A stretch of 64,000 bases of DNA, taken from Carallia brachiata (taxonomy: Eukaryota > Streptophyta > Magnoliopsida > Malpighiales > Rhizophoraceae). Of this stretch, positions 13,586 through 63,708 are shown in pieces (position 1 is the stretch's first letter; each line of letters starts with the position of its first letter). The notes under the pieces are model-generated. The model was given only the letters and a program-made list of their open reading frames with translations. It searched no databases and had not been told where the DNA came from. The position numbers and the translations under genes were made by a program. Where the stretch lies: contig JADCRB010000029.1 of the NCBI GenBank assembly GCA_021464245.1, forward strand, positions 372,001 through 436,000, written 5' to 3'.

Positions 13586-15402
13586 CATTGCATGGTTGTC
13601 AAAATTGTGATTCGGATCGTAAGGTCGTATAATCCCTTGATCGCATATCAGCTAAACGATTTAAATCACTTTCATAATCATTTTAAGGTAAGATCTGTTC
13701 AGAATCGCGAATTAAATCATGAGATCGGTGAGAAATGTTATTTTCAAGTGTTCTTTTGTTTTCGCGATGATACTTTCAACTGTAAAAAGGGCAACATGGA
13801 TCTCGAAGCCTTACTCTCGGACCCTTTTTCTTTCTTCCCTCTCTTTTACTTTCTACTGAGCTTACTGAAGTTATTTAAAACTAAAATTTAAATTTGAATG
13901 AACCTTATTCTAAAACATAAAATGTAAACATTACATATGATTTGCCATGAAAAAATTTCTTTTTGAAAATTTTTTTCTAAAACAGTACAAAAAATATTTT
14001 AAATTTTTTAATGAGTGTGTATACTTCTTAATATATAATTTTTTTAAAAAAAAATTAATTACTTTTGTATTGGGCTTAGTACATATGATGCACCTATGCT
14101 CGGCGCACTTAACATAACATCAGACTTGTCACAGTTCACAAAGTAATTTCATGGTGCCACGAACCTATGGAGAAAATGTTGAAGAAGCACCACATAACTA
14201 TGAGAATTATGATGACCATATAAATCAAGGAGATAATCACAATTAATGTTGTTAATTAAGAATAATGATATATAATTTTATGTTTTATGCTTGAATTTTA
14301 ATTTAAAAAACTTATGGAATGCTTAAAACATATAAATTACATTTCAATTGATATTTTTTATTTTGTTTTTTTAATTTCAGTAAAATCTTATGATTCTAAG
14401 ATCCGATCTTATGATTCAATTCTGACGTTTCCAAAACGATCTTAGATAGAATTCCCATTTGAACAACCTTGATGCGTTGTTGATATTGCCAATGTGCTTG
14501 AAGCAATTGATAGGCTTTGGAACCTTTGTGAGCAAAGGTCGAATCTGTTTTGTGATTTTTCTCAACTGTTCGTCTAAAATTGAGCGGATGATTCAATAAA
14601 GGTTTCAAATAGCGAGGGGCGGTTATATTGATTGCTGTCAAAAGTCACTGTTTTAAATAGCCGATTCCAGGGGACACTGCAATGGCCGCAATCGTGCCAG
14701 CCATTGGAGCCAACGCGGGGCACTATTCTACCCATTGAAGTGTCTCGGCAATTTTCAAATTTCAGGCTGTTGTTTGGATCCTGAGCGAGATAAAAAGTAG
14801 AGGTAACAAAGAAACGGATTAGTTCAGACTCAGATTTAGTATCAGACTCTTAAAGTTATTGAAATTTTCACTAAATACAAATAGGATTAAATTATCTTAT
14901 TCAAGAGCTTTTGTCATCTAGAAATTTCAACAGAAACCGACTCACTATTATTGCTCCCTGTTTACTTCCCTGGTCTCGTCTCATCCATATCGCCATCTAT
15001 CTTCAAGTGCCACGTCCTTACCTTCATTCTCTCGCTAATGCTATTGCAAATGCAGATTTTAAAAAAGCAGACAAGTTGAAGAAAATTAAGAATGTAAATG
15101 AGCAATTAAAAAAAAAAATGCGAGTAGCTGGGGTGATATTATTAAACTTTTTTATTTTAACTTTTTTATTATGATGCAATATTAAAAAAGCAGATGAAAG
15201 ATTATATGTGGACCTTTTAAAGTTAATTTCTGTAATATTCTCTTCAACTTACTTTTGAAAGCTTTTAACAAAAATATCTACTTTTGTCTTTTTTTTTTTT
15301 TTTTTGTCTTTTTGTTCATTCAATCTTTAACCTTTCAGTCAAAAAAAAAAAAAAAAAAAAAAAACAAAAAAGGGAGATTTTAAGTCCGGGCAAAAGCTAT
15401 CC
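13586..15402. other. Repeat-rich intergenic DNA, unresolved
   Basis: A left segment starting GGTTGTCAAAATTGTGATTC (about 13590) and a right segment near 14400-14475 share reversed words (GGTTGTTCAAAT, GATCGGATC). This hints at a decayed DNA transposon, but no target duplication confirms it. Long A and T homopolymers lie near 15290-15370. No gene was recognised. Confidence 0.3.
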
Positions 15403-16306
15403 TGTAAACATTAAAATAAAAAAAAAATGAAAAAGAAAAAAAAAAATCAATAGTCGACTTATTCCTTTCACATGTGTGCTTTTACACGGAAAAATCGATT
15501 TATTTCTTTCTCACGCATGCTTTCACACCGAAAAGTCAGAAAAGTCGACTTATTCCTTCTCACGCGTGCTTTCACACAGAAAAGTCGACTTATTCCATTT
15601 ACATGGAAAAGTCGACTTATGCTTTTTACACGCATGCTTTCACACGAGAAGGGAAATCCTATAAATAGGTTCCTGCCCCTTAGTTCAAAACATATTCAGC
15701 AAATCTGTAAACAGAAAAATTTAGAGAATTTGAGAGAAAAAGAAAATTTCTCCTTTTCTTACGTACTTTTACTCTGCAGTATACTCTTCTAACTTCTTTT
15801 TGAGAGATATTTCAGGGGTAAAGCCCAAAAAATTTGTTGTTTCCATATCTAAAGTTATTTTTAAATTTATATTCTCGGATCGCTGTAGATCTAAATTTAT
15901 GAGAATATAGATTTAAAAATATCAAATTACTACAAATTCAGCTGAGATTAAGTCTCATACGGCCCTCAGCAAAATCCATGCAACTTATCCGAGAACAAGT
16001 CCCTTCGACCCTCGGTGAAATTAAGCCAAATCAGCTCAGATCTGGTCTCTACGGTTCTTAACTGTAGTCAAAACGTCCAAATCAGATCCGGTTTCAGTCT
16101 ACCCAGTTTAAGAAAAAGCTGTGGAAATTATTTCTGTTAAGATCAAACTCGTGCAGCCCTTGACCGAGTCAAAAACGAAATACTAATCAGAGGATCTACG
16201 GAAATTGACCCCACATAAATTTTTTTTTATTTTTACAATTTTTATTTATAATTTATTTTATATTTTTAAATTTAAATTATTTTAAACTTGTAATTTAGGC
16301 TTTAGG
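15403..16306 (+). repeat. Solo LTR, related to the Ty3/gypsy element at 53.7-63.7 kb
   Basis: It starts TGTAAACATTAAAATAAAA, like the LTRs at 53746 and 63041 (TGTAAACTAATAATTAAAA). About 360 bp from 15945 onward is clearly homologous to their R/U5 region (shared CATACGGCCCTCAGCAAAAT, CTTATCCGAGAACAAGTCC and GATCTACGG). The U3 part is unrelated: it has a tandem array (15454-15650) and TATAAATAGG at about 15661. No internal coding region or second LTR is adjacent, so it is a solo LTR formed by recombination or a remnant. Flanks TATCC and TACTCC are only an imperfect target duplication. Confidence 0.7.
15454..15650 (+). repeat. Tandem repeat in the U3 of the solo LTR, five units of about 27-50 bp
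   Basis: Each unit begins TCGACTTAT or TCGATTTAT. Most units continue with TTCTCACGC and GTGCTTTCACAC and end GAAAAG. Unit lengths differ and one unit is shortened. Repeats at this place in an LTR are commonly enhancer-like; that role is inferred. Confidence 0.65.
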
Positions 16307-19328: not shown

Positions 19329-20258
19329 ATGGCTTGCATAATTTATCATTTCACCACCAGCTTCGCTTCACTTCTTGTACTTTTTTTGCTTCTTCTCAGT
19401 CCTCCTGCATTGGCCACAACAAGAAAGCTTGCAGCTTTGGTCCAAGAACAGCCTCTTGTGCTCAAGTATCACAATGGCCCACTTCTCAAAGGCAACGTCA
19501 CCCTCAATCTCGTATGGTACGGCAGTTTCTCACCGGCCCAGCGGTCCATTATCGTTGACTTTCTCAACTCTCTCAATTCTAGAAAAAATCCCAGCCCTTC
19601 AGTCTCCTCGTGGTGGCAAACGACTGCGAGTTACAGAGGCGGTCCCTGCACCATCACTGTAGGGAATCAAGTCCTGGACGAGAATTACTCTCTGGGAAAG
19701 TTCCTGAAAACGCCACAGATTGTGGCTTTGGCGTCCAAAGCTGGCCACGGTAAAAACACGGTGAATTTCGTTTTTACTGCCGCTGACGTGGCTGTGGATG
19801 GGTTCTGCATGAGTAGGTGCGGGACCCACGGAGCAGGTCAGGGTGAAACTGCTAAATTTGCCTACGCGTGGGTGGGTGATTCGGTGACTCAGTGTCCCGG
19901 ACAGTGCGCGTGGCCTTTTCACCAGCCTCTTTATGGCCCACAAACTCCACCGTTAGTCGCCCCCAACGGCGACGTCGGTCTTGACGGCATGATCATAAAC
20001 GTAGCCACGGTTTTGGCAGGGACCGTGACCAATCCCTTCAATGATGGATACTTCCAGGGACAAGCTGACGCACCGCTCGAGGCTGTGAGCGCGTGCACAG
20101 GTATTTTCGGTAAAGGCTCTTATCCTGGATATCCAGGCGAATTGTTGGTGGACAAAACGACCGGGGCGAGCTACAACGCGTTTGGTATCAACGGACGCAA
20201 GTATCTGCTTCCAGCAATGTGGGACCCGCAAACGTCCACGTGCAAAACCATTGTGTGA
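19329..20258 (+). CDS. EXO: EXORDIUM-like (PHI-1 family) secreted protein
   Basis: Intact, intronless frame of 309 residues, normal for the family. Residues 1-29 form a signal peptide (hydrophobic LLVLFLLLLSPPALA). Then come the family landmarks: YHNGPLLKGNVTLNLVWYG (about 47-65), FTAADVAVDGFCMSRCGTHG (about 150-170), [18 protein letters not shown] (about 187-205), then [20 protein letters not shown] (about 208-228), and [20 protein letters not shown] (about 253-272). EXO proteins are apoplastic, respond to brassinosteroid and promote cell expansion; their biochemical activity is not established. Many Cys residues suggest disulfides. The start is the first ATG, directly before the signal peptide. 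A TATA box lies 137 bp upstream. A damaged duplicate lies 8 kb downstream. Gene order suggests the orthologue of Arabidopsis EXO, but an EXL paralogue cannot be excluded. Confidence 0.93.
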   Translation: MACIIYHFTTSFASLLVLFLLLLSPPALATTRKLAALVQEQPLVLKYHNGPLLKGNVTLNLVWYGSFSPAQRSIIVDFLNSLNSRKNPSPSVSSWWQTTASYRGGPCTITVGNQVLDENYSLGKFLKTPQIVALASKAGHGKNTVNFVFTAADVAVDGFCMSRCGTHGAGQGETAKFAYAWVGDSVTQCPGQCAWPFHQPLYGPQTPPLVAPNGDVGLDGMIINVATVLAGTVTNPFNDGYFQGQADAPLEAVSACTGIFGKGSYPGYPGELLVDKTTGASYNAFGINGRKYLLPAMWDPQTSTCKTIV

Positions 20259-27336: not shown

Positions 27337-28323
27337 ACGGCTTGCATATATAATTCACCATTTCACCATCAGTTTGGCTTCACTTCTCGTACTTTTTTTG
27401 CTTCTTCTCAGTCCTCCTGCCTTGGCCACAACAAGAAAGCTTGCAGCTTTGGTCCAAGAACAGCCTCTTGTGCTCATAGACCACAATGGCCCACTTCTCA
27501 AAGGCAACATCACCCTCAATCTCGTCTGGTACGGCAAATTCTCCCGGGCCCAGCGGTCCATTATCGTTGATTTTCTCCACTCTCTCAATTCTGGTAAAAA
27601 TGCCAGCCCTTCAGTCTCCTCTTGGTGGCAAACGACTGTGAGTTACAGAGGCGGTCCCCGCCCCATCACTGTAGGGAATCAAGTGCTAGACGAGAATTAC
27701 TCTCTGGGAAAATCCCTAAAGACGCCACAGATTGTGTGGCTTTAGCGTCCAAAGCTGGCCACGGTAAAAACACAGTGAATTTCGTTTTTACTGCCGTTGA
27801 CGTGGCTGTGGATGGGTTCTGCATAAGTAGGTGCGGGACCCACGGGTGGGGCAGGGTGAAACTGGCAAATTTGCTTACAGATGGGTGGGTGAGTCGGTGA
27901 CTCAGTGTCCCGGACAGTGCGCGTGGCCTTTTCACCAGCCTCTTTATGGCCCACAAACTCCACCGTTAGTCGCTCCCAACGGCGACGTCGGTCTCGACGG
28001 CATGATCATAAACGTAGCCACGGTTTTGGCAGGGATCGTGACCAATCCCTTCAATAATGGATACTTCCAGGGACAAGCTGACGCGCCGCTCGAGGCTATG
28101 AGCTCGTGCACGGGTATTTTCGGTAAAGGCTCTTACCGGGATATCCAGGCAAATTGTTGGTGGACAAAACTAGGGATGGCAAAAATCCCCATCCCCGCGG
28201 GTACCCGCCCCGCCCCGCCCCGATGGGGATGGGGTCAAGCTAGTTTGACCGGGGATCGGGGATCCCCGCCCCGATCCCCATACCCGTCCCCATTACCCGC
28301 CCCGTTATTAATTTATTCTTTTA

Positions 28324-28370
<47 letters not shown>

Positions 28371-29956
28371 GCATTATCATTATTTTACTTAATCCTTGCA
28401 TTTAGGGAGCACTTATTTATTGAAAAGGCGATTACGAGACACATATGTAATTTTGTGATTTTTAATTTTTTTTATTTAAGCTCCTCAAGTTTAATCAATT
28501 GTCTTTTTTCTTCATCTTTTTGGGTTTTGTTGATTGTGGGGTATGTACATGCAGACACCGACACACACCCATTTGCCTATATTCCTGAAGGGGAAAATTG
28601 GATCTGTTGGTTTTTTTTTTAATTTTTAAATATTGGCTTCTAATTTAGTAAAATGGCTAGGAAAGGCATTAAAAAAATATCACTTGATAATTATGAAGTT
28701 GAAGATATAGTTAATAAGAATACATATTGCTTGACTTGTCACACTCCGCACATAAGTAAAAAAAGTAAAGGCCCCCTTAATTTGATGGTGTTTATGAAGT
28801 ATAATATAGACATTGAGCAAGTAAATTTTGATTTGTAATGTAATTGATACTTTTATCTAATTTAATGTCCAACATTAGCCATTGTTTCGAGTTCTTTGTT
28901 TTTTAGCTATGAAGCACGGACACAGCAACACAGACACGGGACGACACAGATACAGCGACATACTAATTTTAAAAATATTAAGATTTAGATATGGTTTGGA
29001 CATGACTATATATAAAATATAAATATAAATAAATAAATATATTATATATATATACATATGTATAAAAAAATTTAATTTATAAAATTTTTGTACATCATAA
29101 ATATATTTTAGAAAAATTTTATAAATTTTATTCACTTAAAAATATCGAAAAATTATTTTTATAATTATTATAAGTTTTAAAAATTTTTTATTTAAAGAAT
29201 ATATCGTAAAATCATTTATTCTTTATTGTGAAGTATTAAAATAGAAATGTCAAATTTTGTAATCAATTTTTTTTTTTTGTTAAAATTAAAAATAAATTAA
29301 AATTCGAACATTTTAAAAGTTATGAACAAATGGTAATATTAAATTATAACTTTTAAAATTTTTTTAATTAAAAATAATAATAATAATACTTGCTTTATTA
29401 GAACTTTTTTAGCACCACAAAAATGAATATTGAAGTCCCTGTTCTGTTTTAAAAGTTGAACAAAATGGCTCAAAGCAATAGGAAAAATACTTTCCTCTCA
29501 ATTCTTATTTACAATCTAAACTTCAATCACGACTTAGGAAAGCAAAAAAAAAAAAACAGAAAAGGGAAAAAGAAAAGAAAACAAAGAAAGTACCTGTAGA
29601 GCGTGACTACGTAGTTAAAAGATTTGTGTAATTAAATTTTGATATTTTATTAATTTAAATTTTTTTATGTAAATTAAAAACGGGGATGGGGCGGGGACGG
29701 GGATCCCCGATCCCCAGCGGGGACGGGGACGGGGATTCAAATCCCCTCCCCGCCGGGGATGGGGACGGGGACGGGGATTGCATTGAAAAGCGGGGACGGG
29801 GATCGGGGATGGCATCCCCGCCCCCGCCCCGCCCCGTTGCCATCCCTAGACAAAACGACCGGAGCGAGCTACAACATGTTTGGTATCTACGGGCGCAAGT
29901 ACCCGCTTCCAGCAATGTGGGACTCGCAAACCTCCACGTGCAAAACCCTTGTGTGA
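27337..29956 (+). pseudogene. EXORDIUM-like pseudogene (duplicate copy)
   Basis: Strongly similar to the intact gene at 19329-20258 but disabled several ways. The start codon is ACG (27337-27339) where the other copy has ATG. A 2-bp insertion at about 27734 shifts the frame after KTPQIV. A 1-bp deletion at about 27845 and an indel near 28135 shift it again. A 1678-bp hAT-like element (28171-29848) interrupts it after LLVDK. The last 36 codons and the TGA stop (29954-29956) survive after the element. The signal-peptide region (SPPALATTRKLAAL) and the [18 protein letters not shown] segment are still readable. The promoter with TATA box is retained, so transcription without a functional product is possible. 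Confidence 0.93.
28171..29848. mobile_element. Non-autonomous hAT-like element inside the EXORDIUM-like pseudogene
   Basis: Perfect 12-bp terminal inverted repeats TAGGGATGGCAA are flanked by a perfect 8-bp target duplication GACAAAAC (28163-28170 and 29849-29856), present once in the intact gene. Both subterminal regions (about 150 bp) are GC-rich arrays of GGGGATGGGGACGGGG-type words in inverted orientation. The interior is AT-rich, with a long TA microsatellite near 28322-28365. No transposase was recognised. The 61-codon frame at 28653 is of unknown nature. Confidence 0.9.
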
Positions 29957-32478: not shown

Positions 32479-34041
32479 TGCATGAAGAGGATAAAAAAAA
32501 TATGAAGTAATCATATTTTAATATCAAAATGTTAATTTTTGAACTAATTATTGTAAAAAAAATTGGAGAGCGTAGATGCTGGCTGGCTCAGGGTAAAGTT
32601 TTCTCTCAAGTCGATGTCTGAATCGCAAAATTAACATTGGAGAGTTGTTGCCACAGACGCTTACATTCACCGTATGGCCGTCACCTATTTATCATTATTT
32701 TTTTTTTTTATATAAGAAATAGTTAACACTTAATCAATGAATTTTTAGGAAGAAACGAAAAAAAAAAAAAATCAATGACCCTATAAAGAATGCAAGCATC
32801 TCTACTCACACCTGTCGACAACCTCTAAATTGGAAGATTTGCCTCCCCCGAGTTGGCTATAGCCTGGACTTATTGGCTCAACAGTCAACAAAATTAATGT
32901 ATTGATTTGGCTATTGATTTGAGGTTCATTTAAAATAATTTTATGTCTTTGGTAAACTGAACATCTATATAATAAAACAAAGTACATATGATTATAAAAT
33001 GAAAAAATAAGTCTTGTTCAAAGAAAAAATGAAAAAATAAGTTAAACAAATAAAAAATATTTTTTTATTAATTATATTTAGTTATGTCAAACTGTTCTGC
33101 ATTTTTCATATAATCACGAAACAAAATGAATGCAACAAAAATAGTTCGGTTAGGTTAGCTTTACATTGTGCGTCACTCAAAACCCAGAGCAGTAGCAAAC
33201 AGCCTACGTTAAGCTTGCATTTCAAATGGCGATTGATACCACCAAAGGTGGTGGTAATGATCAAATTTAGACTCGATTTTTTTTAGTTTTTTAATAAATA
33301 AAATTTTATGTTAAAAAGATTGTATTAAATTTTTAATTTGTTAATATTATGGATATAAAAGGTTTATCATTTAAGGTAATAAATTAGTAATTATTCGGTA
33401 TATCTCTTTTATTAATGATTTAGATTTGATTCTCAGTATTCATGTTTGAAGGCAATACATTTTTTGACCATCAGTTTAATTATGTGTACATAGGTTAATT
33501 TTGAATTCAGTAATTACTGTAATCGATTAAAGGGTGGTCCACTTAAACTCAATAATATTTAGGTGGAAGTTTCTTTTTATGAGTTGAGTTGAATTGAGTT
33601 GAATGAAATACACATATAAAAATATTTTAACATTAATCTGTATATCCGACGGTATATTTAAAAAAAAAAAAAAATTTCAACGGATGAGGAAGGATCAATA
33701 TGGCCATCGGAGTTAGATGGTGGGTCTATTTTATTAAAAGGTTGAATGTCGGGCCACGACGGATGACCGCTGACCAAATCGCGATTGGTTTCAAGGAATG
33801 GTCAAAAAAACACCGTCGGATCAAACGGGCGAGACTAGTCTTTATCCATATCAAGGAACTACTGCCCGCCACGCGTCCATATCTTTTGTATTTTTTTTAA
33901 TTGGGGGCCACTAGTGTGCTAGCGGAGCGCATCACAAAAAATACACTAGCGTTTCTCCAAAAAGTGGAAACTTGCATCATCGCGCCTTTTCGCTCGCTCG
34001 TCGGTCACCTTTTCCGTCAATCGAAACACCGCCGAACCGAG

Positions 34042-36438
34042 ATGGAAGACCCGAAAGAGCACCACCATCACGTCTCTCCAACGTCTCCGGCGAACTCTCA
34101 ACCGTCGTGCTCTGCCAACACCTGCGCCAATTGTGGCGGACCAACCACCTTCCCTAAGTTTCCTCTGCCGCCGCAGACCTCATGGTCCGAAATCTCTCCG
34201 CCCCCAGTCTACCGTCCAATCCGTGCTCCGGCCATCAACCTCCCTCCCAACCACAGTTCCCAAGCCATAATCCTGGCTCCCGTCCCTCAGGCCCAAAAGG
34301 TCCCCACCATTTCCCCGCCGCCCTACAGGTTCGAAGCCCCTTCCAAGAAAATTCAATCTCCGGACGACATCCGCCGCTTCCACGACTCCGATTCAGGTAA
34401 GAACTTCCTCGGTTTCGTTGTCGCACTCTCCGAGTCTGTCCGCCGCCACAAAATCTCCGATCCCTGCCACGAGTCGCAGACCGTAAAAACCCTGGTGTCC
34501 ATCCTCGAAACCCTAATTCGCTGGGTCGAGGAATACCCCCGGTCGAACAAGCTTCTCGTTATGGTAACCTCGCTTATCGAACCTGGCATGAACGTTTAGT
34601 GGAAAATAGTGAGTCGTTGATGCTCCAATTTTTGCCTGATGAACTGAAAGCTTCGACGATCGAGATTGTTCCTTATTTCACAGACAGTTTTGGCAATTAC
34701 AGCCGGATCGATTACGGTACGGGTCACGAAACCAATTTCGCTGCGTGGCTGTATTGCCTGGCAAGGATGGGAGTTGTTAAAGAAGAGGATTATCACGCCG
34801 TTGTGGCCAGAGTTTTTGTCAAGTACATTGAGCTAATGAGAAAATTGCAGTTGGTTTACAGCCTGGAGCCCGCGGGTTCTCACGGTGTTTGGGGGCTGGA
34901 TGATTACCATTTCTTGCCGTTTATATTTGGATCATCCCAGTTGATTGATCACAAATACATGAAGCCGAAGTCAATTCTCAATGACGACATATTAGAGAAT
35001 TTTTCGCACGAGTATATGTATCTCTCGTGCATTGCCTTCATTAAGAAGGTGAAGAAAGGGCTGTTTGCGGAGCATTCACCCATGTTGGATGATATCACTG
35101 TGGTGCCTAATTGGAATAAGGTGAATAGTGGGTTGCTCAAGATGTACAAGGTGGAGGTTCTGGACAAAGTGCCTATTATGCAACATTTTCTGTTTGGCTG
35201 GCTCATTAAGTGGTATGGTTTTTGTTAGGTTGTATGCCCTGTCATTGCAATATTTGTTTTGTTGCATTTCAATGCAGTTATCAATGGTTCCTGGTAATTT
35301 AATTTCCGTTTTAAAGAACCGTTAGTGTCTTAGATTGGTGAGTGTTGTTTGCCATTGAAATGTTGGCTGGACTACCAATGTCTAGGCCAAACTTTGCCCT
35401 CTTTTTCTTTTTGGTATTATTTTCACATAATTTCCTTGAAGTTGAAGAAAATTGGCTGATCAGTGCTTCACATATTCATTTAGATGAAATTGAATGTGTT
35501 GCCAATAATGATATTGGAAGTTTTCATTAGTACTTGGAACAAAAATTGGAATCAACATGAACATTGACTAACGTACCTGACGTGTTTTTAAGTGGCATAT
35601 GGTCCACAGTTTTTTCCGAGATTGGGTAACATAGGCTTGAAACTAGTTGCTTATGTTTTAAGCTTAGAGCATTTGCTGCATTTTTAGTTGCTCGTTTGAA
35701 GTGATTGGCTCATCACATTAGACATACATATGGGCACTTATTATGTGTAGCGATAGCAAGATTTCAGGAGATGGAAGTAGTAATGATATTTATCATGTTC
35801 GTTGTTGCCTGATAGAGGTTTATAATTGCTCTACTTTTTTATATATTAACCTGTCATATATACTTGAAATCTGTTGCCTGCCATTTGTAATTTTGTAGTT
35901 GTGTTTGCTGAAGAATGGAATTACAATAGTCCTTTTACTTGTTCCTTCTTAGATACGTCTATTTGCTCTAACAAAGTATTACGAATAACATTGTCTATGT
36001 TGTATGATGGAGATGGTAATGGTGATGACTTTTTTTGGAATTTTTCATTATCTTTGTAGTATATAATTTGGAGTGCTCCAAGTTACATGAATGTTAAACA
36101 TGGTAATTCTTTAATGGAATTAAGTAGTTTTATATAGAATGTTGTATTCTTGCAACAGAAAATACTGGAATCATTTTTGTGGAGCTTTTAAGAATATTAT
36201 TTGGAGTTATGTTGATGTGTGTATCAATATTGTTGTTTGTATATATAGTTTATTCATCAAAGTTAGAATGATTGGAATTATACCATTTTAAATATTTGTG
36301 CGATTAACTTGAATTGCTTTGAATGCTCCATGTTACTCAGGTTGTCATAATATTTGCAGTGGTGGCTTGTTCTTTCTTTTTCATTATTGTGGTTTACGGT
36401 TCAATTGTGTTTATTCTTTTCATCCTTCCAGGGGATAG
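34042..36438 (+). pseudogene. PTPA: PP2A activator PTPA (peptidyl-prolyl isomerase family); one apparent 1-nt frameshift
   Basis: Two adjacent frames give one PTPA protein. 34042-34590: a His/Pro-rich plant N-terminus with CANCGGP, then the conserved IQSPDDIRRFHDSDS, KNFLGFVVALSESVRRHKIS and VSILETLIRWVEE. 34599-35212: ENSESLMLQFLPDELKASTI, RIDYGTGHETNFAAWLYCLA, GSHGVWGLDDYHFLPFIFG and IMQHFLFGWLIKW. The frame changes by one missing base near 34532; downstream codons then continue the family sequence without loss. A GT-AG intron (35213-36431) follows, and splicing gives K-W-G-stop at 36438. Expected length without the break is about 392 residues. PTPA is a cytosolic/nuclear factor that reactivates PP2A by remodelling its catalytic subunit, using ATP/Mg. 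The start at 34042 is the ATG opening the acidic-His N-terminus; the frame extends upstream without an ATG. Because only one base is affected and a real intron remains, an assembly error or a very recent null allele are both possible. Confidence 0.85.
35213..36431 (+). other. Last intron of the PTPA gene
   Basis: Donor AAGTG|GTATGG, acceptor CTTCCAG|GGGATAG preceded by a T-rich tract. T-rich and without coding similarity. Splicing restores W-G-stop, matching the family C-terminus. Confidence 0.7.
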
Positions 36439-53740: not shown

Positions 53741-53745
53741 GAAGT
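53741..53745 (+). repeat. Target-site duplication, left copy
   Basis: GAAGT directly before the 5' LTR, identical to 63704-63708 directly after the 3' LTR. Confidence 0.9.
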
Positions 53746-54429
53746 TGTAAACTAATAATTAAAAAAAAAAAAAATATCTTGGTTGGCAGCCGCTAACCTT
53801 GAAGTCAAGGTTGGTAGCTGCCAACCTTTAATGCCACCAACTAATTGGTTGGTGGCAGGCAGGTGGGGGAGGCCTATAAATGGCCTCCCCAAATTGAAGC
53901 AAAGGCAAGCAGAAGAAAAGAGAAAAAAAGAAAAAAAGAAGGGAGCAGCGAAGCGCAGCGCAGAAAGAAGAAAGAAAAAAAAAAAGAGTGCAGAGGGCAG
54001 GCGAAAAACAAAAAAAAAAAGAGAGAGATAGTAATTAAAAAAAAATCAAAATATTACAAATCTGGCTGGGATTAAGCCTCATACGGCCCTCAGCAAAATC
54101 CAGGCAACTTATCCGAGAACAAGTCCATTCGACCCTCGGTGAAATTAAGTCAGATCGGCTCAGATCAAGTCTCTACAGTTCCTAAACGTAGTCAAAACAT
54201 CCAAATCAGACACAGTTTCAGTCTATCCAGTTCAAGAAAAAGCGGTGAAAATTATTTCTGTCAAGATCAAATTCGTGCAGCCCTTGACGGAGTCAAAAAA
54301 GGAACACTAATCGGAGGATCTACGGAGATCGACCCCACGTAAATTTTCTTTTACTTTACAATTTTTTATTGTAATTTATTTTTGTATTTTCGAGTTTAAT
54401 TGTTTTAGGCTCGAAATTTACGCTTTACA
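53746..54429 (+). repeat. 5' LTR (684 bp)
   Basis: Begins TGTAAACTAATAATT and ends TTTACGCTTTACA. U3 is short and rich in inverted repeats. The TATA box (TATAAAT, 53875-53881) is enclosed by GGGGAGGCC and its complement. A purine-rich leader follows, then the R/U5 sequence shared with the solo LTR at 15403-16306. Confidence 0.95.
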
Positions 54430-54435
54430 AATTTT

Positions 54436-54453
54436 TGGCACGTTCGGTGGGAC
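54436..54453 (+). other. Primer-binding site candidate
   Basis: TGGCACGTTCGGTGGGAC lies 6 bp after the 5' LTR. The initial TGG fits the complement of a tRNA CCA end. The tRNA itself was not identified from memory. Confidence 0.5.
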
Positions 54454-54564
54454 ATCTTCACCTCCCATCTCTTGTTCCTTAAAAGTAAAAAAAAAAAGTA
54501 AAAAGTAAAAAAGTAAAAAGTAAAAAGTAAAAAAAAAAAATTTTACAGGTGTTCAGCACATCAA

Positions 54565-55872
54565 ATGGCACCGAAAAGGAGTACAACTGCTGCCACAAAA
54601 AAGAAGGCAACGGCTCCATTGCCTGCATCAACTACCCTACCTGGGTACGCAGGTCCAGAAACCCGGGGACGGACACAATTTCTTGCCGTCCAAACCCGAC
54701 AAAATATCGAAATGGAGAGTCCACAGCTCGCACAACAGGATCTCTCCCCTGACTCTCTTGCCGCATGGAGGAGTCGATCACCCACCCCGATCGAAGTCGG
54801 GGGCAACACGACGAAAGCCTGCTCAACAAATCCAACTCATTCTGTAGATCCACAGAAGAATCAGAAGAGTTTTCTCCCCCAGTCTTTCCCGGAGCCTCAT
54901 CTGTTGCCGTCATGATGACCAACACAACCAGCACAGAGGAAAGATTTCAGAATTGGAGAACAAAATTTTGCAGCTGATCAGAGTCGTGGAGGAAAAAGAT
55001 CAACAGATCGCCGCTCTCAAAGGAAAGCCCCGATCCAAGTTGATCCCGAAATCCGCGAGGAGCAACCATATCCACCCGGTTTCACTCCAGAAGCCACACC
55101 AGCCGACGTCTTCCCTGCAGAAAAGCGACCAGGTAGTTCTACACAGCTGCCACCCTCAAATTCTGTAGCTTCGCTATCTGTTCAACAATTGCAGGAAATG
55201 ATAGCCAATACGATCCGACTGCAACAAGCTACATCCTTCCAAGGATCACAGATGTACGTCAAACCGTACACCAGACGGATCGAAAGTCTCAACATGCCCT
55301 TGGGCTACCAGCCGCCCAAATTTCAACAATTCGACGGACGAGGCGATCCCAAACAGCACATCGCCCACTTCGTTGAAACCTGCAACAACGCAGGGACTTA
55401 TGGAGATCTCTTGGTGAAGCAGTTTGTTCGTTCACTCAGGGAGACCGCTTTCACCTGGTTCATAAATCTTGAACCAGAATCGATCGACAGTTGGGAACAG
55501 CTACAACGAGAGTTCCTCAACAGATTTTTCAGCACTCGAAGGACGGTAAGTATGATGGAGCTTACCAGCACCAAACAAAAAAGGAGAGCCCGTTGTCGAA
55601 TACATCAACAGATGGCGTGCCCTCAGCTTGGACTGCAAAGATCGCCTGACGGAGACTTCTGCCGTGGAGATGTGCATCCAGGAATGCATTGGGAGCTGTT
55701 ATACATCCTGCAGGGTGTCAAACCCCGAACTTTCGAAGAACTGGCGACCCGCGCACATGATATGGAGATAAGCATCCAGACTTCCGGAGGCACGGTTCCC
55801 ATCCAGTTGGACCAGCAAGGGGGCAGAAGGGAGATTAAGAAACCCAACAGCTCCGGAAAAGGAAAGAAGTGA
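54565..55872 (+). pseudogene. gag region, frame-broken
   Basis: The first frame starts at 54565 (MAPKRSTTAATKKKA) and stops at 54915. The retrotransposon gag core is in 55189-55872, with [20 protein letters not shown] and [14 protein letters not shown] (about 55330-55500). Two compensating single-base shifts near 55578 and 55683 garble the part between. Gag would form the capsid-like particle. The N-terminal part (54953-55168) is in yet another frame. Confidence 0.8.
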
Positions 55873-56539
55873 TGACTGTTGAAGCCGCACCAGTAAAAGT
55901 GGGCGCCAAAGCTAAGGTAAATCCTCCGACCCAAATAACTCAGCCAAAACAACAGGAAAGGCGGAAGGTGACATTGCGAGAGTTGGAGCAGAAGCAGTAT
56001 CCATTCCCCGACTCAGACGTCCCCGACATTCTTGAACAACTCTGGAGGCGAAGCTGATCGAACTCCCAGAGTGCAAGCGGCCGAATGAAAAGGATCGAGT
56101 CAGCGATCCGAGATTCTGCAAATATCACCGGATAGTAAGTCATCCAACCGAGAAGTGTTTCGTCCTGAAGGAGCTAATCATGAAGCTCAAAGCCAGAATA
56201 AAATCATTCTGGACCAGGAAGGCATAACTCTGCAAACCAGACCACCATCACTTCAAAACCATCAGAAGAGGTGACACACCAAGGAGGAGCCGCTCGACAA
56301 CAAAAAGTCGACAACGGAGAAGGTATATGAAGCTCTCCAAACCCTTCTCGCTAACCCTCAGCTGTTTATAGCTTTGCAATCAACAGAAGTGTGGCAAAAT
56401 CAAGTCAGCAATACTCTCCAGACCTCAGCTGAATCAGCCATCAAATGATTCTAACTCAGCGGAGCAACAGACGGCCAAAATCACGTCGGATGTTACTCTG
56501 CTATCTCATTTTCAGATGAGGATCTCCTGCTGGGGTCCA

Positions 56540-57300
56540 AACCCCACAATCGGCCGCTGTATGTATCAGGCTATGTGAGAGAACAGAAGGTCCGACGTAT
56601 TCTGATCGACGATGGTCAGCAGTCAATATTATCCCAAAATCCACCATAAAGGAGCTCGGCATCGGTGTGATGAATTATCAGACAGCCGCTTGATGATTCA
56701 TGGCTTTAATCAAGGAGGACAGAAAGCAATTGGGATGATTCGCTTGGAGCTAACTATCGGTAATCTCACTTCTAGCACTCTATTTCACGTGATTGATGCA
56801 CGTACCACATATAAGATGTTGCTAGGACGACCGTGGATTCATGGAAATGGAGTTGTGCTCTCAAGCCTGCATCAGTGCTTCAAGTACTACAATGGTGGCG
56901 TTCAAAAGGTCAATGCTGACTTAAAGCCGTTCGATGATGCTGAATCACATTTGGCGGATGCAGTCTTCTACACTGACACAGACAATCCGAGATCATTCCG
57001 TCAAAAGCTACTTGGACTGGGGGCATCCACAAAAAGGGAAAAGCTGTCGAAGAACCTGCCAATGCCAACCCAGGCTCCAACAAATGAAAAGCTGCCACAG
57101 CCTGCTGAACTCCGTCCGAAGGATGTTGCATCTTCAAGCTCCACTCCAGTCCTACGCTATGTGCCGAAGTCACGACGCTCAGAAGGTCAACCCCCTTTCT
57201 CTTATTGTATTGATCTAAACAGGAGCAAGGACATAGCCAACCCAAACAAAGGAGCTGCACAACCTGAAGGAGACTTACACTCTGCCGATACCAAAGATTG
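56540..57300 (+). pseudogene. Aspartic protease region, frame-broken
   Basis: An IDDG active-site-like motif lies near 56605 and is followed by a frame change. The open frame 56612-57301 then carries IGMIRLELTIGNLTSSTLFH and KMLLGRPWIHGNGVVLSSLH, typical of plant Ty3/gypsy proteases. The downstream stretch to 57700 is a degenerate linker. Confidence 0.7.
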
Positions 57301-57708
57301 AGCCGGTTTTTCTTCAAAACCATTAAAAGGCTTCGTCAAACCACACACGGGGGCAGTCGAAGGCGGCTCACTTCCAGAAAGAAGAACACATGAAGGATTT
57401 GATCCTAATGCATACAAGCTTTTGGCAAGGCGGGCTATGACTTCTCAAACCCGAGCACAATGGGTACGCTGCCGTCCACACATGGCGCCTCTCAAACATC
57501 ACAGTCCCGACCTGGCTTAGGCTATCAGGAGAAGTCACCTGTGCGGATCACGCTAAAGAGCCGAAGCCGAGCAGCTGATGCACGTGCCATCACACCACCA
57601 CCACCAACAAGACAGGCTTATCCAGTCAAACAAAGAAGGTGAAGTCAGAGGTTCTGCATTTCATGTCACAATTAGCGAGGAGGCTGATCCGACTCATCAG
57701 ATGGTGAA

Positions 57709-58838
57709 GTGAAGGAGGCTCCCCCGGAACTTGAAGATGGTGGCCAAGCAACTGTTGATGAACTCAAGGAGGTCAATCTTGGCTCTCCGGAAGATCCTCG
57801 ACCTACATTTGTAAGTGCTTTACTTACTGCAGAAGAAGAGCAAGAATATGTTCAGGTATTAAGTCAATACAGGGACGTGTTCGCATGGAGTTACAAAGAA
57901 ATGCCTGGACTTGACCCAAAATTGCGGTGCATCGTCTAGCAGTAAAGAAGGGTTCGTTCTGTCAAGCAGCCACAACGACGGTTCCGCCCGGAACTCATTC
58001 CACAAATCGAGGAGGAGGTGAACAAGCTGATCAATGCTGGCTTCATCCGAGAGGTCACCTACCCAACGTGGATTGCCAACATAGTCCCGGTAAGAAAGAA
58101 GAATGGACAGTTGAGGGTATGTGTTGATTTTCGAGATCTTAACAGGGCCTGCCCGAAAGATGACTTTCCGTTGCCCATAACGGAGATCACAGTCGATGCA
58201 ACAACGGGTCACGAAGCATTGTCCTTCATGGATGGTTCTTCAGGCTATAACCAAATCAGAATGGCACCAGAAGACAAGGAGTTGACAGCATTCCGCACCC
58301 CAAAAGGTATATACTGCTACAAAGTTATGCCATTTGGATTGAAAAATGCTGGCGCCACTTAGTTGGGAGATGTAGAATGTTATGTTGAGTTGATGACTTA
58401 GTTGTCAACGTGCTATGCAAAAAAATTTTTGATGATATGCTGCACAAGATTGTAGAATGTTATGTTGATGACTTAGTTGTAAAGACTAAAAAGCGCAAAG
58501 ACCACCTCGAGGATCTCAAGACGGTGTTCGAAAGACTTCGCAGGCATCAGCTCAAAATGAACCCTCTCAAGTGTGCATTCGGTGTCACATCAGGAAAGTT
58601 TCTTGGGTTCGTGGTGCGCCATCGTGGAATCGAAGTTGATCAGTCAAAGGTTGAGGTAATTCAAAAGATGCCTGAACCTAAAAACCTGCACGAGCTGCGA
58701 AGTCTACAAGGAAAGCTGGCCTACATTCGCCGTTTCATCTCCAATTTAGCTGGGAGATGTCAACCTTTCCATCGGTTGATGAAGAAGGATGTCAACTTCG
58801 AGTGGGACGAAGCTTGCAGCAAAGCCTTTGAAGCATAA
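57709..58838 (+). pseudogene. Reverse transcriptase region, broken by frameshifts and a local insertion
   Basis: 57709-57939 holds the region before the polymerase (YRDVFAWSYKEMPGLDP). 58018-58362 holds fingers/palm motifs (VCVDFRDLNRACPKDDFPLP, FMDGSSGYNQI, MPFGLKNAGAT). 58410-58838 holds the catalytic YVDD (58461-58472) and the connection (KFLGFVVRHRGIEVDQSKVE). An extra 44 bp or so at about 58362-58405 splits the domain and introduces stops; it partly duplicates the YVDD-coding sequence. Confidence 0.9.
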
Positions 58839-59760
58839 AGAAGTACTTTCCAATCCACCGGTCCTAGGTGCTCCAATTCAAGGAAAGTCGTTGATTCTCT
58901 ACATTGCAGCGCAGGAAAGATCTTTGGGAGCCTTGCTTGCACAGGAAAATGAGCAGGGAAAGGAAGTTGCCCTGTACTACTTGAGCAGAACACTAAACGG
59001 TCCGGAGCTGAGTTATTCGCCCATTGAAAAGACATGTCTAGCACTGTTCTTTGCCATTGACAAGCTGAGGCACTACATGCAAGCTCACACGGTACGTCTC
59101 ATTGCCAGAGCTGATCCTGTCAAATATATCTTATCCAGACCAATCTTGTCAGGACGACTTGCCAAGTGGGCAGTAATCCTACAAAGCTACGACATTGTCT
59201 ACGTGCCTCAAAAAGCAGTCAAAGGACAAGCTCTAGCAGACTTCCTTGCAGATCACCCTGTTCCGTCAGATTGGGAGTTCACAGATGATCTTCCAGATGA
59301 AGAGGTCTTTTACATTGAGACACTGCCACCATGGACGATGTTCTTTGATGGTGCAGCAAGGCGTGATGGTGCTGGTGCCGGCATAGTGTTTGTCACTCCT
59401 CAACGACAAATACTACCATATGCTATCATTCTCGGTGAGTTATGTTCAAATAATGTTGCTGAATACCAGGCTTTGATCATTGGTCTTCAAATGGCTGTCG
59501 ATATGAAGATTCCAACTATAGAAGTCCATGGAGATTCCCAGCTCGTCATCAACCAACTTACAGGATTGTATGATGAAGAAAGAGGACTTGCGCCTTACCA
59601 TCAACGTGCTCGACAGCTAATGGATGAATTTGAAAGCATCACCTTGGAGCATGTGCCTCGACGAGAAAACACTCAGGCAGACGCGTTGGCTAACCTGGCC
59701 ACTCTCTTGCAAAGTCAGAAATCCAGGCTACAGTTGTTGCCGTATGCCAGAAATGGATAG
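58789..59760 (+). CDS. RNase H followed by a second (archaeal-type) RNase H domain
   Basis: One open frame of 323 codons. The first part (about 58880-59150) is the usual Ty3/gypsy RNase H (SLILYIAAQERSLGALLAQE, YYLSRTLNGPELSYSPIEKT). A tether follows (WAVILQSYDIVYVP). The second domain starts at FFDGAARRDGAGAGIVF (59341), with acidic residues in NVAEYQAL, HGDSQLVINQL and NTQADALANLA (Asp-Glu-Asp-Asp). This dual arrangement is typical of Tat retrotransposons; the second domain supplies RNase H activity for removing RNA primers or template. Confidence 0.9.
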   Translation: MSTSSGTKLAAKPLKHKEVLSNPPVLGAPIQGKSLILYIAAQERSLGALLAQENEQGKEVALYYLSRTLNGPELSYSPIEKTCLALFFAIDKLRHYMQAHTVRLIARADPVKYILSRPILSGRLAKWAVILQSYDIVYVPQKAVKGQALADFLADHPVPSDWEFTDDLPDEEVFYIETLPPWTMFFDGAARRDGAGAGIVFVTPQRQILPYAIILGELCSNNVAEYQALIIGLQMAVDMKIPTIEVHGDSQLVINQLTGLYDEERGLAPYHQRARQLMDEFESITLEHVPRRENTQADALANLATLLQSQKSRLQLLPYARNG

Positions 59761-59979
59761 TGCCACAGAAGGATGATGAAGAAACTACAGCAGCCAACGC
59801 TGTATCTGTACGTCTCGCGGAGGACGAGGATTGGCGCCAACCAATCATTGACTACCTACAGCACGGGAAGCTGCCCGAAGATCGTCGTCATAAGACAGAA
59901 ATTCAACGACGAGCTCCCCGCTTCATATATCTCAAGGATGCTCTGTATCGAAGGTCTTTTGATGGAGTTTTACTTCGTG

Positions 59980-60950
59980 CCTAGCAATGAAGAGGCAAAA
60001 CAGCTCTCTGAAGCACATTCTGGTGTTTGTGGCGGACATCAATCGGGCCTAAGTTGCACTTCCAACTCAGAAGGATGGGATACTACTGGCCAACCATGGT
60101 ACGTGATTCAATTGAGTTTGCTAAAACTTGTCAAGCTTGTCAATTTCATGCGAATTACATACATCAACCACCGGAGCCACTGCATCCAACTGTCTCATCC
60201 TGGCCCTTTGAAGCTTGGGGTCTCGACTTAGTGGGGCCCTTGCCAAAGTCATCCCTGGGTCACCTGTACATCCTCGCAGCAACCGACTACTTCTCAAAAT
60301 GGGCTGAAGCCATTCCACTTAGAGAGGTAAAGAAGGAGCATGTTGCCAATTTCATCCGGACTCAGCTGATCTATCGCTATGGAGTCCCTCGATTCATCAT
60401 CACTGATAATGGTAAGCAGTTCTACAACAGCTTATCGACAAGCTCTGCGAGAAGTTCAAGTTCAAGCAGTACAAGTCATCCATGTACAATGCCCCAGCAA
60501 ATGGCTTGGCCGAAGCATTCAACAAGACCTTATGCAACCTGTTGCGGAAGGTAGTCTCTAAATCCAAAAGAGATTGGCATGACAGAATTCCGGAGGCATT
60601 ATGGGCGTATCGTACAACTTACCGGACTCCAACACAGGCGACGCCATACTCACTTGTCTACGGTGTCGAAGCAATACTGCCGTTGGAAACACAGATTCCA
60701 TCCCTGCGCATGGCTGTTCTGGAAGGACTCACACAGGAGGAGAATGCTCGCCTACGTCTGGATGAGTTAGAAGCCTCGATGAAAGGAGGCTCGAAGCACA
60801 ACAGCAACTTGAGTGCTACCAAGCCCGGCTCACCAACACGTTCAACCGCAGGGTCCGCCCTCGATCTTTTCAAGTTGGAGACCTTGTTCTTGCAGTGCGA
60901 CGGCCCATCAACATGAAGCATCGGCCTGGTGACAAGCTTACTTCCAAATG
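59980..60950 (+). pseudogene. Integrase region, frame-broken
   Basis: The His-His-Cys-Cys zinc-binding part spans two frames (HSGVCGGH near 60016, CQACQFH near 60132). The catalytic core has Asp in GLDLVGPL (60225-60227), Asp in TDNG (60405-60407) and Glu in GLAEAFNKTL (60512-60514). The Glu lies in a different frame, with a shift between about 60425 and 60482. It ends with the usual LPLETQIPSLRMAVLE region. It would insert the cDNA into host DNA. Confidence 0.88.
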
Positions 60951-61159
60951 GGACGGGCCATACTAGTGCAGGAGGCCTACACACACGCTTACATGCTGTC
61001 AGACCAAGAAGGCGTCCGAATCGGCCCATCAATGGTAAATTTCTGAAACAGTATTATGTGTAAATATGTTTAAAAAAAAAATCAAAAAAAAAAACAAAAA
61101 AAAAAAATCAAAAAAAATCAAAAAAAAAAAAGTTCGAAGTCCGATCTGAAAGTCCAAGC

Positions 61160-61395
61160 GAAACCAAACGAAAATCCAACCCAAACACTTGAGCCCAATT
61201 CAGAGTCCAACTCAAAAGCCTGAAAACCAAATCCAAAATCCAAGTCCAAACCCAAACACTCGACCCAAATCCAAAAATCCAAGTCTAGAAGCCCAAACAC
61301 TCGACCCAAATCCAATCCAAAGCCCAAAACCCAAAAATTCCAAGTCCAACACAGTCCAGAACCCAAGTTCAAAATCCAATCCAACTCCTGGCCCG
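61160..61395 (+). repeat. CCAAACCC-type degenerate repeat after integrase
   Basis: Many imperfect copies of CCAAACACTCGACCCAAATC and AAAATCCAAGTCCAA. In one frame they encode Pro/Asn/Lys/Ser repeats (PNPNTRPKSK). It separates integrase from the homeodomain frame and is preceded by A-rich sequence (61068-61130). Confidence 0.55.
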
Positions 61396-61520
61396 CATGA
61401 GTATAAACTGTGAACGGCCCAAAAATATAAAAGCACGGAGGGTTTGAGTCTGAAACTCAGCATCAGTCTCAACCGATCTTCACCACATACCAAGACCTTT
61501 GCTCCTCTGCCACAAGAAAG

Positions 61521-61988
61521 ATGGAACCAGTTGCAGAACCTCAAGACAAGGGAGAAGAAAGGTCACCCCGCACAAGGTGGCAACCGACCATGGCACAACT
61601 GCAAATTTTGGAGGAAGTCTTCCACAACAATGGAGGTATTATTCCTAGTGCATCTCAAATTTACCAACTTGTCTCACGATTGCGCCCGCTCGGGGCAATC
61701 GAAGGAAAAAATGTGTTTTATTGGTTCCAGAATCGGAGAAGCAGGAAGAAACCAGCACTGAGAACTGCTTTTTCCAAAGAACAGTCTGTCGTTCCGATAG
61801 TAGTTCCCACTGGTACAGCTTCGCCCTCAAATGAAGCAGGTCCGAGTTCTTCCACTGCAATGGTCTCTCCACGGTATGTTCATCAAAGCCGTAGCCCATG
61901 GGAGCATGCATGCTGGTCCTGGTGGTCTTACGGAGTCAGCCAAGGGTTCATCCCTCCTAGATACTTAAGTCTAGGAGGAATTTTCTAG
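61521..61988 (+). CDS. WUSCHEL-type (WOX) homeodomain protein carried by the retrotransposon
   Basis: Intact frame of 155 residues with a canonical ATG, in the same sense as gag-pol. Residues about 17-77 form a WOX homeodomain: TRWQPTMAQLQILEEVF (helix 1), IPSASQIYQLVSRLRPLG (helix 2) and IEGKNVFYWFQNRRSRKK (recognition helix with W68, F69, Q70, N71). The extra loop residues and IEGKNVFYWFQN are specific to plant WOX/WUS proteins, which bind DNA in the nucleus and control stem cells. The C-terminal half is Ser/Pro/Trp-rich with no clear WUS box or EAR motif. No intron interrupts the domain. Capture from a host WOX transcript is the simplest explanation. It could instead be a long-standing extra gene of this retrotransposon family. 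Confidence 0.82.
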   Translation: MEPVAEPQDKGEERSPRTRWQPTMAQLQILEEVFHNNGGIIPSASQIYQLVSRLRPLGAIEGKNVFYWFQNRRSRKKPALRTAFSKEQSVVPIVVPTGTASPSNEAGPSSSTAMVSPRYVHQSRSPWEHACWSWWSYGVSQGFIPPRYLSLGGIF

Positions 61989-62153
61989 CAGAAAGGAGTT
62001 ATTCCGGCGAAACTTTGCCTCTCTTTCCAGAATATTCCGAGCATCAACCAGCCGGAAAGCGACGTCAACATCATCGGCCCACCAGACGAGGTCGAGCTTG
62101 ACTTGGAGTTGCACCTCGGGCCCCGCTAGGACGGCCGACAAGATAAGGTGCAA

Positions 62154-62245
62154 CGACTTTGGCAGCACACGGTAACGACTTCTGCAGCACACGGCAACGA
62201 CTTCTGCAACACACGGTAACGACTTTCGTGACACGCGTCAGCCGC
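62154..62245 (+). repeat. 22-bp tandem repeat, four units
   Basis: Units start at 62154, 62176, 62198 and 62220. Consensus: CGACTTCTGCAGCACACGG followed by (C/T)AA. The fourth unit is diverged. It lies between the homeodomain frame and the last open frame of the element. Confidence 0.75.
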
Positions 62246-62414
62246 TGCCTCTTTTGTCTCTTATGCAGGAAAGGGACGTGGATGGCCCTACTCGATTCTG
62301 CGTACCTTCTTTTTGACTTTTCAAAAAAAAAAAAAAAAACTTTATCGCATGTATATATATCTTGCATTCCCGAGTTATAATACTCACCCCTCAGCTCTTC
62401 TTTCTCAAAAGAAA

Positions 62415-62924
62415 ATGGCTAGTCTCTGCACTTGTCTCAGGAAGTTCTTCGATCAAGAAGTTGGAGGCGCACGAGCTAAGAAAAGAAGGAGTAGTCTTCC
62501 TCGAGGGATCCCTAACGCCATCGGTGTCATGGAGTTCCAACTACTCTCCTTAGTTCACATCTACTACAGAGGGATGAGACGCTGCAATTATCCTAATCTT
62601 CCTTTGGATGCGGCGATGTACGGGAAGTTCCAACTACTCTCCTTACGTCGAAGCAGACTTAGGAATCATCACTACAGTCAGTCTCTCTGTGTGCCGGTCT
62701 TGAAGTTCCAAGGTCTGGGCCTTCCTCTTGGGGAGGTTCAAGTTCTTTGCCTACCGGATCATCCTCACCAGAGCTTTGGAACTTCAAAGAACCTTTGCAG
62801 CCTTTGCCATGGAAGCTCGAATGCACCTGGAAGAATGTCAATTTTTATATTGGCTGGGCTGCTAACTTTCTCAAGATCGTATCGGATTCCTATTGCGATC
62901 CAACAACAGACATATCAAAGATAG
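62415..62924 (+). CDS. Unrecognised open frame near the 3' end of the retrotransposon
   Basis: About 169 codons from the ATG at 62415 (MASLCTCLRKFFDQEVGGAR). It has a basic KKRRSSLPRG segment and a repeated FQLLSL motif that comes from a duplicated GTTCCAACTACTCTCCTTA word. No known domain was seen. A different frame covers 62747-63028, so the original frame may be shifted. Position after the homeodomain frame suggests it belongs to the same extra gene region. Confidence 0.3.
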   Translation: MASLCTCLRKFFDQEVGGARAKKRRSSLPRGIPNAIGVMEFQLLSLVHIYYRGMRRCNYPNLPLDAAMYGKFQLLSLRRSRLRNHHYSQSLCVPVLKFQGLGLPLGEVQVLCLPDHPHQSFGTSKNLCSLCHGSSNAPGRMSIFILAGLLTFSRSYRIPIAIQQQTYQR

Positions 62925-63026
62925 AAGACTCCAAGATTCAATGTTCATCAGGACTTTCCAAATTTCAAACTGGACTTCAAGACTCGGTTCGAATTATCTC
63001 TGTAAAAATCTTTCTTACCGACCCTT

Positions 63027-63037
63027 GAAGTGGGGGC
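63027..63037 (+). other. Polypurine tract
   Basis: GAAGTGGGGGC lies just before the 3' LTR at 63041, the expected place of the plus-strand primer. Confidence 0.7.
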
Positions 63038-63040
63038 ATT

Positions 63041-63703
63041 TGTAAACTAATAATTAAAAAAAAAAAAAATCTTGGTTGGCAGCCGCCAACCTTGAAGTCA
63101 AGGTTGGCAGCTGCCAACCTTTAATGCCACCAACCAATTGGTTGGTGGCAGGCAGGTGGGGGAGGCCTATAAATGGCCTCCCCAATTGAAGCAAAGGCAG
63201 CAGAAAAAAGAAGAAAAAAAGAAAAAAGAAGGGAGCAGCAAGCGCAGCGCAGAAAAAAAAAAAAAAAAAGAGCGCGAAAGAAAAAAAAAAACAGAGAGAG
63301 ATAGTAATTAAAAAAAAAATTGAAATATTACAAATCCGGCTGGGATTAAGTTTCATACGGCCCTCAGCAAAATCCAGACAACTCATCTGAGAACAAGTCC
63401 ATTCGACACTCGGTGAAATTAAGTCAGATTGGCTCAGATCAAGTCTCTGCGGTTCCTAAACGTAGTCAAAACATCCAAATCAGACACAGTTTCAGTCTAT
63501 CCAGTTCAAGAAATAGCGGTGGAAATTATTTCTGTCAAGATCAAGCTCGTGCAGCCCTTGACGGAGTCAAAAAAGGAACACTAATCGGAAGATCTACGGA
63601 GATCGACCCCACGTAAATTTTCTTTTACTTTACAATTTTTTATTGTAATTTATTTTTGTATTTTCGAGTTTAATTGTTTTAGATTCGAAATTTACGCTTT
63701 ACA
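63041..63703 (+). repeat. 3' LTR (663 bp)
   Basis: Same ends as the 5' LTR; shorter mainly because of A-run and purine-tract indels. It contains a perfect 24-bp palindrome at 63126-63149 and a TATA box (TATAAAT, 63168-63174) enclosed by 9-bp complementary arms (63159-63167 and 63175-63183). The extensin gene lies directly downstream in the same sense. Confidence 0.95.
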
Positions 63704-63708
63704 GAAGT
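63704..63708 (+). repeat. Target-site duplication, right copy
   Basis: GAAGT directly after the 3' LTR, identical to 53741-53745. Confidence 0.9.

Follow-up and report, generated by a model that had tools for sequence, protein, structure and literature searches.

The question raised by this locus is whether a plant LTR retrotransposon carries a gene for a WUSCHEL-type (WOX) homeodomain protein and, if so, where that gene came from and what it might do. The window, i.e. the whole stretch of DNA analysed, is 64,000 nucleotides from Carallia brachiata (contig JADCRB010000029.1, positions 372,001 to 436,000), and all coordinates below are positions within it. An earlier interpretation made from the letters alone, here called the sequence-only reading, had proposed that an intact WOX homeodomain frame lies inside a Ty3/gypsy element of the Tat clade.

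Structure, age and classification of the element

A single LTR retrotransposon occupies positions 53746–63703 of the window, and the following features were recognised in it and at its borders.

53741..53745: target site duplication, left copy, GAAGT
53746..54429, plus strand: 5' LTR, 684 bp, TGTAAAC...TTTACA
55189..55872, plus strand: gag piece (Pfam Retrotrans_gag, E 3.7e-7)
58018..58838, plus strand: reverse transcriptase (RVT_1), two open pieces in different frames
58789..59760, plus strand: RNase H, then a second, Tat-type RNase H (RVT_3, E 1.1e-24)
60027..60916, plus strand: integrase, two open pieces in different frames, with Pfam rve in the first piece only
61426..61432, plus strand: TATA-like box TATAAAA, 95 bp upstream of the ATG of the WOX-type frame
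61521..61988, plus strand: WOX-type frame, 155 aa, homeodomain at residues 17–77
61989..62129, plus strand: WOX frame continued past the in-frame TAG, 46 open codons with the EAR-like end LDLELHLGPR
62150..62237, plus strand: short tandem repeat, 22-bp spacing, about four units
62415..62924, plus strand: possible second accessory frame, 169 aa from ATG, no known domain
63041..63703, plus strand: 3' LTR, 663 bp
63704..63708: target site duplication, right copy, GAAGT

Both LTRs start with TG and end with CA, and the 5-bp duplication on either side of the element is the same at both ends (GAAGT), which bears out the earlier description of a retrotransposon with a perfect target duplication. The K2P distance between the LTRs is 0.064 (34 transitions and 6 transversions over 662 sites), corresponding to an insertion age of 2.5 to 4.6 million years at substitution rates of 1.3e-8 and 7e-9, which we assume to be applicable here. 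Five of the six gap events between the LTRs fall inside an A-rich stretch in which alignment is difficult, and outside this stretch the p-distance is 0.042, for which a calculation by hand gives approximately 1.6 to 3 million years. Inverted repeats lie directly upstream of the TATA-like CTATAAATGG of the LTRs (53779–53860 and 63072–63155), and those in the 3' LTR include TGCCACCAACCAATTGGTTGGTGGCA, which is palindromic by eye. A diverged relative of the LTRs, with ends read by eye, is found at 15401–16305 and matches at approximately 85 % over 15901–16304. No match to the non-LTR parts of the element was found in the window outside the element, and this relative is perhaps a solo LTR.

The order of Pfam matches in the element is gag, reverse transcriptase (in two pieces), RT_RNaseH (E 1.9e-23), RVT_3 and rve, and no Pfam model for a protease matched within it. 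The open pieces of pol are spread over three frames, and the end of pol was placed at approximately 61062 by eye. A second RNase H (aRH) separates Tat elements from Athila, and its location between RH and INT is a mark of Ogre and Retand (PMC6317226). Because pol includes a second RNase H, and because this domain sits between the first RNase H and the integrase, the element is, on its domain order, a Tat-clade Ty3/gypsy element on the Ogre/Retand side; the sequence-only reading had likewise called it Tat. It resembles members of this clade in the LTR-gag-pol order, in the two RNase H domains ahead of the integrase, in the 5-bp target site duplication, and in the tandem repeat and additional reading frames that follow pol ahead of the 3' LTR, but differs from them in that here a sense frame includes a WOX homeodomain. 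Among the best 120 of 1220 matches to the RNase H piece, proteins of plant elements share 53–82 % identity with it, the top-scoring match being from Castanea sativa at 70 % and the 82 % coming from a partial protein; the piece had no match in viral_contigs.

The region from the end of pol to the 3' LTR is short, at 1,978 bp. An antisense TRP28 ORF lies between pol and the 3' LTR in 97 % of Retand clusters; here TRP28 (PF04195) was absent at E values up to 1 from all five antisense ORFs of at least 80 aa in this region, a screen that a decayed TRP28 split between frames could escape. With this ORF missing and the region short, the classification stops at the Ogre/Retand side of Tat. The possible second accessory frame belongs to a run of 230 stop-free codons (62232–62924), begins with the ATG at 62415, is preceded by a TATA-like TATATAT (62352), and contains no domain detected by Pfam or NCBIfam. 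An open run of this length arises in 16 of 2000 shuffles.

The WUSCHEL-type homeodomain and its relatives

The WOX frame extends from an ATG at 61521 through 155 codons to a TAG at 61986–61988. It lies in the sense orientation downstream of the end of pol (approximately 61062) and upstream of the 3' LTR (63041), and this is where the sequence-only reading had put it, between the integrase and the 3' LTR. Pfam identifies the homeodomain (PF00046) at E 4.4e-13, with a score of 49.3 bits where the cut-off is 22.9, and a sequence search of the PDB returned WUS (6ry3, E 2.1e-18) and STENOFOLIA (6wig, E 2.6e-16). The frame includes the motif IEGKNVFYWFQN. AlphaFold2, run with a 19-row alignment, predicts three helices with block pLDDT values of 93–96 for residues 21–70, 77 for residues 71–80 and a low 48–64 elsewhere. 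When the predicted fold was used in Foldseek, all 11 matches at E≤0.001 were chains of WUS or STENOFOLIA. The profile, the PDB sequences and the predicted fold concur, and the WUSCHEL-type homeodomain frame inside this Tat element is real. The sequence-only reading had singled out a profile search devoid of homeodomain similarity as fatal to its claim, and the opposite was found. Length alone says little about the frame, since 103 of 2000 shuffles of this region contain a stretch of at least 185 open codons, but with three kinds of match in accord it is scarcely credible that the frame is open by chance or that the homeodomain was called falsely. No second WOX frame was found in the window, where the remaining three tblastn matches have E values of 0.37 to 4.4.

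Two protein searches with the frame, in which 30 and 69 candidates were scored, gave 11 and 20 matches, respectively, or 20 different proteins when combined. These searches require shared 5-residue words and a similar length, and unannotated copies of the element can escape them. All 20 proteins include the Pfam homeodomain; those with names are plant WOX, WUSCHEL-like, homeobox-domain or hypothetical proteins, and P0001, P0002 and P0008 are nameless. The frame had no match in viral_contigs or genome_contigs. No related element with a homeodomain frame was found in the protein collections or in these two contig sets, and one copy is known.

The homeodomain was aligned over 65 columns with those of the 20 matched proteins and the two PDB entries, making 23 rows. 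Against the 22 WOX rows, the element homeodomain reaches an identity of 34/64 at best. By comparison, all 17 rows of the WUS clade share 39/61 or more (approximately 64 %) with at least one row that is not identical to them. BLASTP identity reaches 58 % (P0015) over a shorter stretch that covers 28 % of the query. This speaks against a recent capture, and the frame does not look like a young copy of an ordinary WOX gene. The sequence-only reading had seen identity with a host WOX exon as pointing to a one-off capture, and no such identity was encountered among the 20 proteins found. In the tree, the branch of the element is long and emerges between the WUS clade and the intermediate clade, with support of 82/77, which is not strong, and grouping the element with the WUS/WOX5-7 rows is not rejected (p-AU 0.30; 65 columns, 23 rows). 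Its traits are also mixed, IEGKN being as in the WUS clade and RRSR as in the intermediate clade. The divergence fits either a long evolution within the element or a donor that was an unusual host gene absent from the matches.

The residues predicted to contact DNA have been retained. In structures of WUS bound to DNA, bases are read by R38, Q89, N90 and R94 (PMC7203112), and all four are present in the element frame, as are WUS I66 and F85, replacement of either of which by alanine lowers binding more than 20-fold (PMC7203112). Nineteen columns do not vary among the remaining 22 rows, and the element matches 17 of them; the probability of this is 4e-4 if each column is kept at 50 %, though relatives found by similarity are biased towards such columns. 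WUS S36 corresponds to an Arg in the element (R17), and Arg is found at this position also in the WOX10-type rows P0010 and P0011. In WUS, S36R leaves binding to TGAA about unchanged and raises binding to TAAT sixfold (PMC7203112), and by analogy the element protein would be expected to read both TGAA and TAAT sites. From its sequence, DNA binding by the protein, if it is made, is likely. The frame resembles the WUS-clade WOX proteins in IEGKNVFYWFQN, in the predicted fold, in the base-reading residues and in an EAR-like C-terminal motif, which here is located beyond an in-frame stop. It differs from them in lying in a mobile element, in being approximately 50 % diverged, in lacking a WUS box, in having RRSR in place of HKAR in helix 3, and in the Arg at the S36 position.

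The interrupted tail and evidence for selection

Past the TAG at 61986–61988 the reading frame stays open for 46 codons, up to a TAG at 62127–62129, and this stretch terminates in ...VELDLELHLGPR, which contains the EAR-like LDLELHL. EAR-type motifs have the form LxLxL near the C-terminus. LxLxLxL occurs in 0.4 % of shuffles of the tail and LxLxL alone in 4.8 %. Repression via the EAR-like tail is plausible. The frame had been described as intact, and this holds for its 155 open codons, but a TAG followed by 46 open codons with an EAR-like end makes intactness doubtful; to judge from this single copy, the 155-aa product may be a truncation of a longer protein. The WUS box is of the TLELFP type, a form that matches the consensus of the WOX alignment, and no L.LFP is found in either part of the frame, before or after the TAG.

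There is no intron in the frame from the ATG through the EAR-like tail. An intron from a canonical-looking donor at GT 61874 to the AG before AATATTCC (approximately 62031) was considered and rejected, as it leaves the EAR frame, and this reading was dropped because the EAR tail is already in the frame of the ATG without splicing. WOX genes have 2–4 exons in cotton and 1–4 in Arabidopsis (PMC5501002). A frame without introns fits passage through an mRNA but is not proof of it.

The sequence-only reading had also drawn attention to a frame that is uninterrupted while gag-pol is broken. As a description this is accurate, pol being in three frames, but as evidence it carries little weight. In a simulation using half of the LTR divergence and substitutions only, 49 % of runs left 155 codons without a stop, and the 739 codons of pol gained 2.3 stops on average. 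When indels are included, the frame survives in approximately 32 % (indel rate from outside the A-rich part of the LTR) or approximately 6 % (mean LTR rate), which puts chance survival at 6–32 %. Hence, an open frame beside a broken pol is a weak sign of selection after insertion.

The longer history of the frame is more telling. In simulated neutral drift to 47–55 % homeodomain identity, 155 codons remained stop-free in 0.4–1.3 % of runs, and when half or less of the divergence is placed on the element side (0.2 and 0.1 substitutions per site), in approximately 3–13 %. Because neutral drift to this identity seldom leaves 155 codons open, selection probably acted on the frame during much of its divergence, be it within the element or, prior to capture, within a host gene. 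Codon usage was also tried. The 155 codons score 0.031 in their own frame versus 0.055 in another frame; the homeodomain part scores best in its own frame, unlike the part that follows, and the tail scores lower than a frame on the minus strand. Control pieces of pol were only weakly separated as well, and codon usage was dropped as evidence of coding because it is too weak.

Origin, possible role and surroundings

The reading that we favour, with somewhat more belief than doubt, is that this Tat element includes an accessory gene derived from a host WOX mRNA, captured before the present insertion and encoding a DNA-binding and probably repressing regulator. Template switching in the course of reverse transcription would have brought the host mRNA into an ancestor of this copy. 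From then on, the gene would have been copied with the element until the homeodomain was approximately 50 % diverged, with the DNA-binding surface retained. The divergence could also predate capture, having arisen in an unsampled host WOX gene. Expression of the frame could be from the TATAAAA at 61426–61432, a candidate internal promoter put forward from one TATA match, or via spliced or read-through RNA. The protein would bind TGAA/TAAT-type sites and repress through the EAR motif, and its targets might be the element's own LTR, in a feedback, or those host genes that render meristem cells permissive to it. This copy of the gene is itself decaying, as is the rest of the element. Counterpoints to this accessory-gene reading are that one copy is known, that the TAG cuts the EAR-like tail off and that there is no WUS box. 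The broader proposal, that a Tat family has a conserved and selected WOX-derived repressor binding sites in host meristem genes and/or the LTRs, with which the element steers stem-cell fate, or its own transcription, in cells that form the germ line, we regard as unlikely.

Alternatively, a host WOX cDNA was transduced once or into a few copies as a passenger without any use to the element, as with the genes transduced by maize Bs1, and we give this a substantial though lesser chance of being correct. Only one copy is known here and there is a stop inside the frame, both of which suit a passenger, as do documented cases of sense genes transduced into LTR elements (PMC7264820) and reports of 672 genes inside LTR elements in rice and 1,343 in sorghum (PMC3726574). 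Against this, a recent passenger should closely resemble its donor and an old one should have lost its frame, but the homeodomain shares at most 34/64 with the 22 WOX rows and is not firmly placed in any WOX subgroup, and its base-reading residues have been kept. The donor could be an odd host gene that is missing from the matches. It is also conceivable, but very improbable, that the mRNA was copied by another retroelement and that the resulting processed WOX retrogene landed inside this element by chance. The lack of an intron would agree with such an origin, and there is a run of 17 A at 62323–62339, approximately 190 bp past the second stop. But no 7–10 bp direct repeat is shared by 61063–61530 and the 40 bp after the A-run, neither AATAAA nor ATTAAA is found in 62130–62330, and the element has 14 A-runs of at least 10 in any case, though in old copies such marks can vanish.

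For possible self-targeting of the LTRs, four motifs were tested in three stretches. TAAT occurs 14 times in the 5' LTR versus 6.7 expected and ranks fourth of 136 tetramer classes; the TAAT counts in the LTRs were reached in 3 of 500 and 2 of 500 dinucleotide shuffles, the two LTRs not being independent of one another. TGAA is not enriched in the LTR, and the LTR relative at 15401–16305 has no excess of TAAT (9 versus 16.5). Hence, with TAAT only fourth of 136 and the excess missing from the relative, LTR self-targeting is a lead only. A scan for sigma-70 promoters, a method that is not meant for plants, found 2 versus 1.7 expected.

Accessory ORFs in Tat elements are already known. Extra ORFs are common in the clade, mostly between pol and the 3' LTR, and seldom include known domains (PMC6317226, PMC7264820, PMC11963269). 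A survey of 2,735 recently active Retand elements reported no sense ORF with a known domain between pol and the LTR (PMC11963269); it covered ORFs of at least 600 bp. A close parallel is with orchid Tat-type elements, which likewise have an extra ORF from a cellular family that acts on nucleic acids, an AlkB-type RNA demethylase, but the domain is a different one and many consensus sequences and an enzyme assay stand behind it (PMC9289625). The same paper describes a plant B3 transcription-factor domain captured in Aegilops tauschii alongside the RNA demethylase of orchids. The section on its screen of 121 genomes names PMD, G-patch, AIR1, DUF1409, YgdH, KOW, B3, ArgoL2 and 2-ODD and includes no homeodomain, 15 domains being reported in all, with the full chart in a supplement (PMC9289625). 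No word beginning with "homeo" occurs in the main text of PMC6317226, PMC9289625, PMC11728184 or PMC3726574. Among the matches listed in a search of open-access journal articles, no title or abstract opening mentions a homeodomain-bearing plant LTR element. What is unusual here is an accessory ORF that is WOX-derived, seen in a single copy.

Extra frames of obscure role are often found in plant LTR elements, and most have no recognisable domain. Here the DNA-binding domain of a stem-cell regulator can be read, which makes function testable via the sites bound, in the LTRs versus host meristem genes, and hints that some plant mobile elements may have taken over a developmental switch. If the gene is conserved, an element would be reaching the germ line by way of developmental control, and some unusual WOX genes annotated in plants might come from elements of this kind.

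The surroundings of the element were also examined. Its left end lies approximately 31 bp beyond position 53714, where a TATATAAAG box begins, and its right end 65 bp before the ATG (63774) of an extensin-like gene for a proline-rich SPPPPP protein. The insertion appears to be near the transcription start and to have put 10 kb between the extensin-like gene and its core promoter. Elsewhere in the window there are a FAR1 plus MULE transposase domain ORF on the minus strand (8084–9031), an EXORDIUM-like (Phi_1) gene (19329–20258) with a partial second Phi_1 match approximately 8 kb on (27831–28622, profile positions 142–235 of 276 only), and a match to PTPA (phosphotyrosyl phosphatase activator) at 33901–35228, in two adjoining ORFs in different frames that represent either exons or a frameshift.
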